From: Thermoleophilia bacterium
Lineage (GTDB): Bacteria; Actinomycetota; Thermoleophilia; Miltoncostaeales; Miltoncostaeaceae
Reading direction: 5' to 3'
DNA length: 64,000 bases
NCBI GenBank assembly: GCA_017882545.1
Contig: JADGPG010000060.1
Location: forward strand, 1-64,000
Positions within the stretch are counted from its first letter, which is position 1. Every line of letters starts with the position of its first letter. Below are positions 31,224 to 36,083 of this stretch, piece after piece. The notes under the pieces were generated by a model. That model did no database searches. It was given only the letters and a program-made list of their open reading frames with translations, and had not been told where the DNA came from. Made by a program: the position numbers and the translations under genes.

Positions 31224-31673
31224 TCAGCCAACGCGATCGGCAAGACGCTTGGCACGGACCGATACCCCCTCTCGACGAAGTGCCGCGAATCGATCCGCGA
31301 GACGGTCGCCATCCCAGACCTCCAAGTACTCGCCAGCTCCAACGACTTTTACGCGCGACCCGAGTCCCGCGTGATCCCGCAACTCGGCCGGCAGCAGGAT
31401 CCTCCCCTGCCGGTCGAGGTCCTGTTCGAAGGCTCCCGCCGACAGGAACCGGCTGAGCTCCCGACCCTCGTCGTCGAGAACGCTCATCGCCCCGAACGTC
31501 CGCTCGATGAGGCCGGCCCATTCGTTGCGCGGCACGACGATGAGACATTCATCGATCCACCAGCCGACCACGGCACCACCGATGAACGGCTCACGAAGGC
31601 GCGCGGGAATCGCCAACCGGAAGCGGTTGTCGAGGCTGCACTCGTGGGTACCTGTGAGGAGCCGGCGATGCAT
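31224..31673 (-). CDS. mraZ: Transcriptional regulator MraZ
   Basis: Two SpoVT/AbrB-like halves: TGTHECSLDNRFRLAIPARLRE and FEQDLDRQGRILLPAELRDHAGL. Confidence 0.93.
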   Translation of the reverse strand: MHRRLLTGTHECSLDNRFRLAIPARLREPFIGGAVVGWWIDECLIVVPRNEWAGLIERTFGAMSVLDDEGRELSRFLSAGAFEQDLDRQGRILLPAELRDHAGLGSRVKVVGAGEYLEVWDGDRLADRFAALRREGVSVRAKRLADRVG

Positions 31674-31677
31674 GGTC

Positions 31678-31722
31678 CCCACCGTACCCCACATCTCCCC
31701 ACATCACAACGAAAGTACCCAC
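31678..31722 (-). promoter_or_regulatory. Putative MraZ-box operator: GTGGG repeats phased at 10 bp
   Basis: CCCAC on the plus strand at 31678, 31688, 31698 and 31718 (10, 10, 20 bp spacing) directly upstream of mraZ. Confidence 0.75.
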
Positions 31723-31821: not shown

Positions 31822-32157
31822 ATGACTGCAACCCTGTACGACATCAACACCGGCCGCCGCCACGACGCCGCGCGTCCGGTCGCCGACGCGCCCGCCCGCC
31901 GCCCGCTGTCGGCAACCATCGCCCTGTTCGGACTCGGAATGACTCCGGGGTTCCTCCTCGCGGGCGCCGCCTCGGCCCAGGGCGGCGCAGGAATGGTCAC
32001 CTCGGCATGGACGCTCGCGGGACTGTCCGGGCTCGTCACGATTGCCGCTGCCCTGCGTTCCCGCCAGATCGCCGTCCGGCGCCGGCAGCGACTCGCCAAA
32101 CGGGCCCGCGCCCAGACCATCCACGAAGCCCCGATCACCATGCGTCGCGCCGCCTGA
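31822..32157 (+). CDS. Small hypothetical membrane protein
   Basis: 111 aa with two hydrophobic stretches; divergent from mraZ. Confidence 0.55.
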   Translation: MTATLYDINTGRRHDAARPVADAPARRPLSATIALFGLGMTPGFLLAGAASAQGGAGMVTSAWTLAGLSGLVTIAAALRSRQIAVRRRQRLAKRARAQTIHEAPITMRRAA

Positions 32158-32214
32158 CCAGACCGCGTCCGGACATGAAACTCATCATGTCCGGACGACG
32201 ACCCTGACCGCGCC

Positions 32215-33135
32215 ATGCGCTACGGTCCAGGCAGTGTCCGTTCCCGCATTCCCGACAAGTCTCGCGTGATCGCAGCGGCGATCGACGTCGGTACGAACAC
32301 GACGCGCCTGCTGGTGGCGGAGGTCGAGGACGGACGGATCACACCGCTCGCCACCGACGCCGTAATGACCGCCTTGGGCGCGGGTCTCGACACATCCGGA
32401 GTGATCGCGGAGCCGGGCCTGGCGCTGGTGGTGCAGACAACGGCGGACATGGCCGTGCACGCCCGTGCGCTCGGCGCCGACCGGCTGGTGATCGCCTGCA
32501 CGGCCATCGGCCGCGATGCGCACAACTCCGCCGATCTGGTTGACCGCATCGCGGCCGCCACCGGGGTCGCACCACACGTGCTCACCGGCGAGCACGAGGC
32601 CGAATTGACCTACGCGGGAATCGTCGCAACGGGATCTCACGGCGGCCAGCTCGTCGCCGCCGATCTCGGCGGTGGATCGCTCGAGCTCATGGGTGGGCAC
32701 CACGGGAGACTGGACTGGGCAAATTCGTTGCCGATCGGGGTCCGCCGGATCACCGAGCGCCACCGGATCAGCGATCCGCCCGACCCGGCGACCTGGGAAC
32801 CGATCGCGGCGGAGGTCGCGGCTCTCGTCACCCCCGTGGCCGCCGATCACCCCGCCTCGGCGATTGTCATCACGGGCGGATCCGCGGCGGCACTCGGCGT
32901 GCTCGCCGGAACCGGGCGCCTCGACCGCGCCGCGCTCTCCGGCGTTCTGGCGGCCCTGGCGGGACGGTCAGCCGATGCCGTCGCGGCCGCGACCGGGCTC
33001 GAGCCCGCCCGGATCCGGCTCTGTCTGGCGGGGGCGGGGGCGCTCGAGGGTGTCCGGCGTGCGTTCGGACTTGACGGCCTCGAGATCTCCCAAGCAGGCT
33101 TGCGGGAAGGACTCGTGCTGGAGGCGACCGGATGA
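32215..33135 (+). CDS. Ppx/GppA family phosphatase
   Basis: AAIDVGTNTTRLLVAEV, VIACTAIGRDAHNS, LTGEHEAELTYAG, AADLGGGSLELM. Confidence 0.92.
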   Translation: MRYGPGSVRSRIPDKSRVIAAAIDVGTNTTRLLVAEVEDGRITPLATDAVMTALGAGLDTSGVIAEPGLALVVQTTADMAVHARALGADRLVIACTAIGRDAHNSADLVDRIAAATGVAPHVLTGEHEAELTYAGIVATGSHGGQLVAADLGGGSLELMGGHHGRLDWANSLPIGVRRITERHRISDPPDPATWEPIAAEVAALVTPVAADHPASAIVITGGSAAALGVLAGTGRLDRAALSGVLAALAGRSADAVAAATGLEPARIRLCLAGAGALEGVRRAFGLDGLEISQAGLREGLVLEATG

Positions 33136-33971
33136 GCACAAACGGCAGCAGCTACCTCGCCCACTGGGGGCTCGCCGAGCCGCCGTTCCTCATCGAGCCG
33201 GATCCGCGTTTCGCCTATGAGCGGGCCGACCACCGGGAAGCGCTCGCGCGCATGCTCTTCGGCCTCACGCAACTTGGCGGGATCGTGTTGATCACCGGCG
33301 AGATCGGCTGCGGCAAGACGATGCTTGCTGAGACCCTGCGCGGGATGTTGTCGGGGGGCGGGTACCAGGTGGTCTCGGTGCCAAACCCGCCGCGGACCAG
33401 CGCAGCATTGCTCGGCGCGATCCTGGATGCATCTGGCGGGCCGAGCGCCGGCGGGTCTGCGGCCCGGCTGGCCGGCCTCGTCCGCGAGCAGCTGCAGCAG
33501 GCGGCCGACCGCGGCCAACGGGTCGTCCTCGCCGTCGACGAGGCCCAGCGCCTTGATGCCCGCGCGCTCGACGAACTGCGGATGCTGACCAATCCCGGGT
33601 CGGGTGGGTCGGCTCCGGCCGTGTTGCTCGGGCAACCCGAGCTCAGCACCAAAATCGGCCGCTATCCCCAGGTCGCCCAGCGGGTCGTCGTGCGGTATCA
33701 CCTGCAGCCGATGCGCGCCGACGAGATCGAGGGCTACATCGGCCATCGCACGCGCGTGGCCGGGTCGCCGCGGCGCCTGTTCACCCGCCGGGCCGCGGCC
33801 GCCGTCCACGAGGAAACCGGGGGTACGCCGCGCCTGGTCAACCTCATCTGCGCCAACGCGCTGTTCGTCGGAGCCGCCCGAAGTGAAGACGAAATCGGCG
33901 CGGACACGATCCGGGACCTTGCCGAAGACCGGCGCCGGTCCGAACATCTCGCCGACCAGGGAGCACCATGA
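33132..33971 (+). CDS. ExeA/TniB-like AAA ATPase
   Basis: WGLAEPPFLIEPDPRFAY start, Walker A GEIGCGKT, Walker B VVLAVDEAQRL, GGTPRLVNLICANAL. Confidence 0.88.
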   Translation: MSTNGSSYLAHWGLAEPPFLIEPDPRFAYERADHREALARMLFGLTQLGGIVLITGEIGCGKTMLAETLRGMLSGGGYQVVSVPNPPRTSAALLGAILDASGGPSAGGSAARLAGLVREQLQQAADRGQRVVLAVDEAQRLDARALDELRMLTNPGSGGSAPAVLLGQPELSTKIGRYPQVAQRVVVRYHLQPMRADEIEGYIGHRTRVAGSPRRLFTRRAAAAVHEETGGTPRLVNLICANALFVGAARSEDEIGADTIRDLAEDRRRSEHLADQGAP

Positions 33972-34297
33972 GCGAGGTCAGCTACCAGACGTTCCTGTCG
34001 GACATCGGGCGGCTCGGCAGCGAGCGCTTCGTGCCGGTCGATCCCAGCGAACTCGATTCGCGCCGCAAGGATGCGGACCGGAAGCTCACGATCCGAGTCT
34101 CCAAGCAGCAGGCGAAGTGGCTCGACCACATCGAAGCGATCACGGGCAAGGGCATCGACGAGGATGCCGTCATCCGCGTGCTGATTGACCTCGGGCGCCA
34201 ACTGGAGGTGGACTGGGCCATGACCGCCGGCGCGCCCGCACTCCGGGCTGCGGTCGCCGACGCTGTGCGAGTGCGCAGGACCAGCTCCCGCGCCTGA
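33968..34297 (+). CDS. Hypothetical protein with ribbon-helix-helix-like segment
   Basis: KLTIRVSKQQAKWLDHIEAITGKGIDEDAVIRVLIDLG resembles RHH; overlaps the neighbouring genes. Confidence 0.65.
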   Translation: MSEVSYQTFLSDIGRLGSERFVPVDPSELDSRRKDADRKLTIRVSKQQAKWLDHIEAITGKGIDEDAVIRVLIDLGRQLEVDWAMTAGAPALRAAVADAVRVRRTSSRA

Positions 34298-34815
34298 TGG
34301 CACGTGCGTGGGACGTCAACGGGCTCGCCCCCAACGCCGGCTTCCGTGACGCTGCCGGGCGCATCGTGCTGACCCGCTGGCGCGAGATGCTCAGCTACCG
34401 GGACGGGACACTGGTCGGCGACGACATCGAGGAACTGCACGCCATGCGGGTCTCGTCGCGACGCCTGCGCGCCGCCATGGACGCGTTCGCCGACGTCTTC
34501 CCCGCCGCCTCGTTCCGGCGATATCTGCGAGAGGTCAAGCGAATCACCGACACGCTCGGCGATGCCCGGGACCTCGATGTGGCGATCGAACATCTGACGA
34601 TCCTGCTGCCGGAGGTCGACGGCGTCGACCGCCCGGGCATCGAGGGGCTCATCGACCGGTACGAACAGCAGCGCCGGGCCGAGGACGCGCGGATCCGCGC
34701 CCTCGTCGATCGGCTTGAACAGGAGCGCTTTGCCGATCGGTTCGAGGCCTGGGTCCACAAGCACACCGGCATCGACGTCGCAACGCTCGCTCCGGCACCC
34801 CCGGCCGGCGCCTGA
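34297..34815 (+). CDS. CHAD-domain N-terminal half protein
   Basis: LHAMRVSSRRLRAAMDAFADVFP...LGDARDLDVAIEHL. Confidence 0.85.
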   Translation: MARAWDVNGLAPNAGFRDAAGRIVLTRWREMLSYRDGTLVGDDIEELHAMRVSSRRLRAAMDAFADVFPAASFRRYLREVKRITDTLGDARDLDVAIEHLTILLPEVDGVDRPGIEGLIDRYEQQRRAEDARIRALVDRLEQERFADRFEAWVHKHTGIDVATLAPAPPAGA

Positions 34816-35399
34816 TGGCCAAGCCCCGCCCGGTCGGCGGCATCGACCCGACGCGTCGCGTCCGTCCGAACGCGCGGAAGATTCTTGCGATGCGGATTGA
34901 TGAGATCTACCAATACGACGGGCTGGTCGGCGACCCGGCAAACGTCACCGAACTGCACGACATGCGTATCGCCTTCAAGCGCCTCCGGTATCTGATCGAG
35001 ATCTTCGGCGATGCCTTCGAGGCAGACCTCGTCCCGTACTTGGACCAGGTCAAGGCGATGCAGGACCTGCTCGGCGACATCCACGACTGCGACGTCCAGG
35101 TCCCCATGCTCGGGGAGCACCTGGCGTGGCTCGAACGCCAGGAGACCGAAAGCGTTGAGCGGATGCTCACCAGCCCGCGCCGGGCCCGGACACCGGACGA
35201 TCCGGAAATCGCCCTCGCCCGCTTCAAGAGCCGGCTCGACACGGCCCGGCGCGCCGATGAGCGGCCCGGCATCCATACCCTCATGGCGATGCGCCGGGCC
35301 CAGCGGATCGCCCTCTACAACCAGTTCACCCACGAGTGGCGGCGGCTCAAGCATGCGCGATTCCGTCAGCGGCTCGAGCATGCGCTCGGCCTCGGATAG
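34815..35399 (+). CDS. CHAD-domain C-terminal half protein
   Basis: LHDMRIAFKRLRYLIEIFGDAF...MQDLLGDIHDCDVQVPML; TGATG 1-nt overlap with the preceding gene. Confidence 0.85.
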   Translation: MAKPRPVGGIDPTRRVRPNARKILAMRIDEIYQYDGLVGDPANVTELHDMRIAFKRLRYLIEIFGDAFEADLVPYLDQVKAMQDLLGDIHDCDVQVPMLGEHLAWLERQETESVERMLTSPRRARTPDDPEIALARFKSRLDTARRADERPGIHTLMAMRRAQRIALYNQFTHEWRRLKHARFRQRLEHALGLG

Positions 35400-35408
35400 G
35401 CGGGGTCG

Positions 35409-36083
35409 GTGAGCCCAGCGTCTCAACGGCTGGCGGTCGTCGGCGACATCCACGCGCGCCGTGACGCCCTCGCGGCGGTCATCGACGCGATCCGGGACGC
35501 CGGCATCGCGCGCGGGGTGTGTACCGGCGACGTCGTGATGCGCGGACCGGACCCCGCCGCATGTATCGCGGCGCTCCGCGAGCTCGATTGGCCGGTCGTG
35601 AGCGGCAACACCGACCGGAAGGTCGCTGCCGGTAGTCCGCGCCGCCCGGAGCACGCGGCCTCGTCCCGGGTCGGGTCTCGCTCCTGGACCTACCGCGAGC
35701 TCGGGCGGGCGGACCGGAAGTGGCTTGAGGCGCTCCCGGACGCGGTCCGCCTCGACCTCGGCGGGGCCAGGATCGTCGTCACCCACGGGGATGCCGACTC
35801 GGTCAGCATCCCCGTCAACGCCGCGACCTCCGATCGGGACATCGAGCGCCTGCTGCGGAAGCTCGACGCCGATGTGCTGGTCGTGGGTCACACCCACGAG
35901 GCGATGATTCGCACCGTTCGTACCGGGATCGTCGTCAATCCCGGCGCCGTCGGCGAGAGCCGGAATCCCGATCAGCAGCCGCACTGGGCGTGGCTGGAGG
36001 CGACCGCGGACGGAGTGACGGCCCACCTGGAGGTCGTCGAAACCCCACTCGCGCCTCAGCGCGACGACACCCCGGACGATTGA
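35409..36083 (+). CDS. Calcineurin-like metallophosphoesterase (YfcE/MJ0936-like)
   Basis: VVGDIHARRDALAAV, CTGDVVMRGPDP, VVSGNTDRKV, VVTHGDADSV, VGHTHEAM. Confidence 0.88.
   Translation: MSPASQRLAVVGDIHARRDALAAVIDAIRDAGIARGVCTGDVVMRGPDPAACIAALRELDWPVVSGNTDRKVAAGSPRRPEHAASSRVGSRSWTYRELGRADRKWLEALPDAVRLDLGGARIVVTHGDADSVSIPVNAATSDRDIERLLRKLDADVLVVGHTHEAMIRTVRTGIVVNPGAVGESRNPDQQPHWAWLEATADGVTAHLEVVETPLAPQRDDTPDD

Follow-up and report, generated by a model that had tools for sequence, protein, structure and literature searches.

We analyzed a 64,000-nucleotide (nt) stretch of DNA (hereafter the window; contig JADGPG010000060.1, assembly GCA_017882545.1) from a Thermoleophilia bacterium of the family Miltoncostaeaceae, whose genome is a 2.27-Mb draft, 93% complete. 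At positions 32215-36083, six + strand open reading frames encode a Ppx/GppA-family protein, an ExeA-type ATPase, a small protein with a putative ribbon-helix-helix (RHH) fold, the two halves of a CHAD domain, and a metallophosphoesterase (MPE). Four of these genes, exeA, rhh, chadN and chadC, make up a fixed core, and ppx and mpe are optional parts. The module is a predicted polyphosphate locus that gained an ATPase-adaptor pair. The best explanation, which we hold with roughly even confidence, is that the ATPase and its adaptor act on CHAD-bound polyphosphate, most likely to organise granules. The six genes are the following:

32215..33135, + strand: ppx, a short Ppx/GppA-family protein of 306 amino acids (aa) (Pfam PF02541, 2e-35)
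33132..33971, + strand: exeA, an ExeA/MuB/TnsC-type AAA+ ATPase of 279 aa (Pfam AAA_22, 1.6e-21)
33968..34297, + strand: rhh, a small adaptor-like protein of 109 aa with a strand-helix-helix pattern compatible with ribbon-helix-helix
34297..34815, + strand: chadN, a separate protein corresponding to the CHAD N-half (PF05235, 1.1e-25, profile positions 4-134 of 228)
34815..35399, + strand: chadC, a separate protein corresponding to the CHAD C-half (PF05235, 1e-17, profile positions 148-224)
35409..36083, + strand: mpe, a YfcE-type metallophosphoesterase of 224 aa (PF12850, Metallophos_2, 8.8e-25)

An earlier note on this DNA had described six coupled genes on one strand, and we confirmed its coordinates, its overlaps of 1-4 nt and its 9-nt gap: ppx/exeA and exeA/rhh overlap by 4 nt each, rhh/chadN and chadN/chadC by 1 nt each, and mpe starts 9 nt past chadC. 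Comparison of same-genus pairs gave low ratios of nonsynonymous to synonymous substitution (dN/dS) for all genes, with values of about 0.06 for exeA (the lowest), 0.13-0.29 for rhh and 0.08-0.17 for the CHAD halves, which indicates purifying selection and hence real genes. Some ppx values from one locus (L048) were excluded as meaningless, probably because the alignment contained an upstream stop. Among the module proteins, ExeA shows the strongest conservation, with 83-91% identity within the genus.

The genomes compared are drafts, sampled rather than exhaustive, and the genes of relatives were named from tblastn or profile matches and, in some cases, from reading the sequence. After searching 101 relatives, we found rhh in 16 genomes from 9 genera, all of one family, in or near which stand the named species Miltoncostaea marina and M. 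oceani. The order exeA-rhh-chadN-chadC is adjacent in all 16, with exeA interrupted by a contig end in G023. Regarding the flanking genes, the module ppx lies upstream of exeA in 10 of the 16 genomes and is missing in four (G007, G012, G015 and G018), the other two being at contig ends (its presence beside exeA was judgeable in 14 relatives), while mpe is found in 14 of the 16 and missing in two. The module ExeA clade and rhh stand in a 1:1 relation, and neither occurs without split CHAD in the genomes searched. Outside the family, the rhh profile found nothing in 399 genomes of the class and 297 of the phylum, save weak matches in unrelated contexts, and no member of the module ExeA clade appeared in 249 genomes of the class and 347 of the phylum. 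Among the matches listed in a genome-wide scan, the closest ExeA relatives outside the family share no more than 43% identity, and none of those listed has CHAD or rhh nearby. The earlier note had reckoned that its idea would fall if the neighbourhood were conserved in this genome only, or if the ATPase and RHH genes usually occurred without CHAD/Ppx; the neighbourhood is instead kept over 9 genera and both genes occur solely with the CHAD pair. Its picture of an ATPase joined to a polyphosphate module thus stood, with a fixed core, whereas the Ppx and metallophosphoesterase that it had counted as members turned out to be optional.

CHAD domains bind polyphosphate and comprise two four-helix bundles (PMC6537752). 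Both halves in the window score above the Pfam cut-off and carry the basic motif (HxxRxxxRRLR in chadN, HxxRxxxKRLR in chadC). No single continuous domain is present, and chadN and chadC are best described as two half-CHAD proteins, not one CHAD protein. Since they are two genes in every relative carrying the module, the division is not a frameshift. Elsewhere in the class, outside this family, split CHAD is accompanied by ppx, ppk1 or both, and exeA and rhh are absent. One such locus (L065, 5737-9411) reads ppk1-chadN-chadC, with ppk1 confirmed by PF02503 in the corresponding genome, G053, and another (L067, 4566-8741) reads ppx-chadN-chadC followed by a gene that is ppk1 by sequence. These arrangements in sister families suggest that the ATPase-adaptor pair was added to a polyphosphate locus. 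In several genomes we also found intact CHAD genes no more than about 4 kb from ppk1, and the window's own genome encodes Ppk1 and several Ppk2 genes. Given the ppk1/ppx neighbours, the Ppk genes of the host and the polyphosphate binding known for CHAD domains (PMC6537752), the predicted polyphosphate function of the CHAD pair is well supported. As a separate observation, such a division of CHAD over two genes is widespread in families of the class other than this one.

Regarding the two optional genes, the module Ppx retains both phosphate loops of the Ppx/GppA family, DVGTNTTRL (DxGxNxxRL) and DLGGGSLE (DLGGGSxE), which place it in that family, and matches TIGR03706 at 1.1e-48, yet under the cut-off of that profile. 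The window's genome holds two other Ppx genes, so that the module ppx is a third, divergent paralogue; other module-bearing genomes also have additional Ppx genes, and there too the module copy is the extra, divergent one. The MPE matches TIGR00040 with 56.6 bits, for a cut-off of 56.25.

Evidence bearing on contact between the pair and the CHAD proteins came from G008, the sole family member with ppx-chadN-chadC-mpe yet without exeA and rhh. Its ppx and chadN are almost contiguous, with no space for an exeA/rhh remnant. As a reference we used its same-genus sister G017, which carries the full module. The distance to other family members was 1.33-fold that of G017 for chadN (bootstrap 95% 1.17-1.54) and 1.41-fold for chadC (1.24-1.65), while the ratios for rsmH, mraZ, ppx and mpe were 0.95-1.05. 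Besides, the G008 chadC lacks a stretch of about 30 residues that its sister has. The CHAD genes have thus diverged faster where the ATPase and adaptor are absent, which is the pattern expected if ExeA and the RHH-like protein contact the CHAD proteins.

The ATPase has intact Walker A (GEIGCGKT) and Walker B (VVLAVDEAQ) motifs, as expected for an AAA_22-type enzyme. Against TIGR03015, the profile of the XrtA/PEP-CTERM ATPase, it scored 166 bits (9.2e-49), under the cut-off of 324.5. Searches with Pfam and NCBIfam found the AAA domain alone in the 279-aa protein, with no C-terminal transmembrane or peptidoglycan-binding region; some GspA proteins likewise have no periplasmic region (PMC9239104). 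A profile search of solved structures retrieved MuB (9.3e-6) and ShTnsC (4.3e-4), and Foldseek with a medium-confidence model matched Orc/Cdc6, TnsC and MuB. The predicted ATPase therefore resembles the DNA-acting MuB, TnsC and Orc proteins, but DNA binding cannot be assumed, because ExeA/GspA itself works at the cell envelope (PMC9239104). In the tree, the module ATPases group as one clade (support 100/100) on an extended branch, far removed from the ExeA genes that transposons carry in the class; the closest relatives sampled sit in gene clusters resembling chemotaxis genes by sequence (cheR, cheD, cheB). In two of these (L107, 4970-9477; L112, 4948-9428), an ExeA-type ATPase in a cheR-cheD-cheB-like cluster is followed by a lysine-rich protein starting LSFKKIL or ISFRNIL, perhaps another uncharacterised ATPase-partner system. 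Elsewhere, in L239 (genome G151) and L243 (genome G217), we noted transposon-like units that combine an ExeA-like ATPase with an integrase-like gene and, as a third member, a large gene. An anti-phage defence function was also considered for the module and rejected, as it drew weak generic AAA matches alone.

For the 109-aa RHH-like protein, an AlphaFold2 monomer model of medium confidence (predicted local distance difference test score, pLDDT, 74) places an extended stretch at residues 38-45 and helices at 46-58, 65-78 and 89-99; a ribbon-helix-helix monomer would likewise show an extended part with two helices after it. The protein has no Pfam family (best ParD, 0.081, under the cut-off), no PDB match, and no fold-search match for the model. 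The residues invariant in an alignment of 15 sequences are Y6, Q7, L10, K34, A36, W51, L52, D74, L79, W83 and R93. At the N-terminus, xSYQxxL agrees with a more relaxed pattern, hydrophobic-x-x-[AIMF]-L, that recurs near the N-terminus of genes adjoining other ExeA-family ATPases (L107-L184), whose partners are of several unrelated kinds: MSYILDALRR (GspB-like), MDRIQKALDK (kinase-like), MGKITEALKK, and the LSFKKIL/ISFRNIL of the chemotaxis-like clusters. It occurs in 41 of 93 exeA-adjacent genes and in 83 of 695 others from the same loci (Fisher p 1.7e-12), a descriptive p-value only, as the motif was picked post hoc, many adjacent genes are homologous, and some matches are signal peptides. 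The pattern is possibly a common docking peptide by which partner proteins engage ExeA-family ATPases. For rhh, we infer a putative ATPase-docking N-terminal tail and a cargo- or DNA-facing remainder. The weak phylum matches of the rhh profile mentioned above (L185-L192) were set aside, being small RHH-looking proteins with other neighbours and without ExeA. Among them, L185 (5297-5901), L186 and L187, from other phylum members, carry tandem small RHH-like proteins (RVPITMPEEM...) with no Pfam match.

Two genes flank the module on its upstream side:

31224..31694, - strand: mraZ, a divergent neighbour that marks a conserved site beside a division/cell-wall cluster
31822..32157, + strand: a small basic protein of 111 aa with a predicted pI of 12, upstream of ppx and a possible extra module member

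The oppositely read mraZ-rsmH-ftsL-ftsI adjoins the module in most relatives whose contig reaches far enough. The small basic protein has no family match in Pfam and is weakly conserved in three further same-genus genomes and in two other genera.

In the mechanism that we propose, ChadN and ChadC would pair into one CHAD unit binding polyphosphate, as expected from their family, and the RHH-like protein would be the dedicated adaptor of the ExeA ATPase, probably docking via its xSYQxxL peptide. ATPase and adaptor would act ATP-dependently on the CHAD/polyphosphate surface. The likely outcome would be granule organisation: the pair might tether or space the granules, set their size, or govern how Ppx and MPE, the phosphatases, reach them. 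The most speculative step takes the nucleoid as the other anchor; the idea arises because the ATPase resembles DNA-bound MuB/TnsC/Orc and because an RHH protein would bind DNA. A link of the module to DNA or the nucleoid, along the lines suggested in the earlier note, is plausible at most, and the fuller proposal of an ATP-driven positioning or partition system, in which an ExeA/MuB-like ATPase and an RHH adaptor tie CHAD-coated granules to the nucleoid and move or space them, appears unlikely to us.

Granule organisation ranks first among the readings that we weighed, phosphatase access or turnover next, and a transcriptional role is less likely. One could argue that the pair regulates polyphosphate turnover, loading or releasing Ppx and MPE on the CHAD-bound polymer or remodelling the CHAD complex, and plays no part in placement. 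Complex remodelling is a common activity of AAA+ proteins, the cluster includes ppx in 10 and mpe in 14 of the 16 relatives, and the module has a divergent Ppx of its own, additional to the others; but the core is kept in the four genomes without module ppx and in two without mpe, and the absence of exeA and rhh in G008 leaves the ppx and mpe rates unchanged. We give this alternative a rather low probability. A regulator pair acting on its own operon, and perhaps on other genes, while sensing polyphosphate or ATP, is quite unlikely. RHH proteins are usually repressors, and a perfect 13-bp inverted repeat, CGTCCGGACATGA, with a 6-nt loop and without a T-run, lies at 32166-32197 directly before ppx. 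However, the repeat has no counterpart at the equivalent place in relatives, on which ground a conserved operator upstream of ppx was rejected; moreover, the invariant rhh residues fall in the tail at the N-terminus and in the cores of the helices, outside the putative DNA-facing strand, and the RHH fold itself is without library confirmation.

An envelope role of the pair, comparable to that in GspA/GspB, exopolysaccharide or pilus systems, with the CHAD genes merely co-regulated, agrees with TIGR03015 as the closest curated profile, with the ExeA genes of chemotaxis-like clusters as the closest in the tree, and with the adjoining division/cell-wall genes. Nevertheless, neither the ATPase nor rhh has a peptidoglycan-binding domain (Pfam, NCBIfam), and in the rate test the CHAD halves track exeA and rhh while the cell-wall neighbours do not, which makes this reading very unlikely. 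Hardly credible is the view of exeA and rhh as hitchhikers, for instance remains of a TniB/MuB-like transposon frozen in the operon. Other ExeA-like genes of the class are indeed mostly in transposon-like units, with up to nine copies per genome (nine were counted in one genome of the class), but the module genes are under strong purifying selection, and keep the same location over 9 genera, and the ATPase has a fully supported clade of its own that excludes the transposon group. No module in the 16 genomes contains a transposase gene of the kind that MuB and TnsC work with, and a mobile origin was rejected since rhh had no match in plasmids, exeA had none in phages, and the clade is separate from transposon ExeA.

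Several points weigh against the organisation of granules by the pair. The rate effect in G008 comes from one lineage, and replacement by a divergent CHAD variant could be an alternative. The putative RHH fold and DNA binding are without Pfam or PDB confirmation, the basic residues of the putative strand are not conserved, and the docking motif was chosen post hoc. Besides, the module ppx is missing in four relatives and mpe in two.

According to a 2025 review, the energy need for placing polyphosphate granules remains to be seen, and their ATP dependence is listed as unknown (PMC13052382). No paper in our literature search combined ExeA and CHAD, and none brought polyphosphate together with both an AAA+ ATPase and a ribbon-helix-helix protein. 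The module offers a tangible, conserved candidate for an ATPase that specifically serves CHAD-bound polyphosphate, and the conserved ATPase-adaptor-CHAD set suggests that energy may be spent on organising polyphosphate stores, which is not yet shown in any bacterium. A shared N-terminal docking peptide on ExeA partners across unrelated systems is a directly testable suggestion.

In order to contextualize the module, we compared it with known systems. It shares with GspA/GspB (ExeA/ExeB) and the TIGR03015 family the ATPase family and a dedicated adjacent partner gene with a similar N-terminal pattern; here, however, the partner is small and RHH-like, there is no peptidoglycan-binding region, the TIGR03015 score is half of the cut-off, and the context is polyphosphate instead of secretion or exopolysaccharide. 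With the DNA-filament AAA+ ATPases MuB and TnsC it has detectable sequence similarity and a similar predicted fold, known from sequence and model alone, but no transposase and no mobile element. Like the CHAD proteins CtCHAD, SsCHAD and ygiF (PMC6537752) and the ppk1/ppx/CHAD loci, it has the CHAD motif, present in both halves, and a ppx neighbour, with ppk1 in sister families; unlike them, its CHAD is divided over two genes and associated with an AAA+ ATPase plus small adaptor. Two further systems serve as working analogies. AlgP of Pseudomonas aeruginosa is a proposed link of the polyphosphate granule to the chromosome (PMC9239181), and is one histone-H1-like protein without an ATPase, unlike the module. 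McdA/McdB and ParA-type positioning pairs also combine an ATPase with a small adaptor on cargo, but the module ATPase is an AAA+ and not a ParA/MinD protein. If the proposed tie between granules and nucleoid were true, it would be a second evolutionary solution to organelle positioning beside the ParA-type one.

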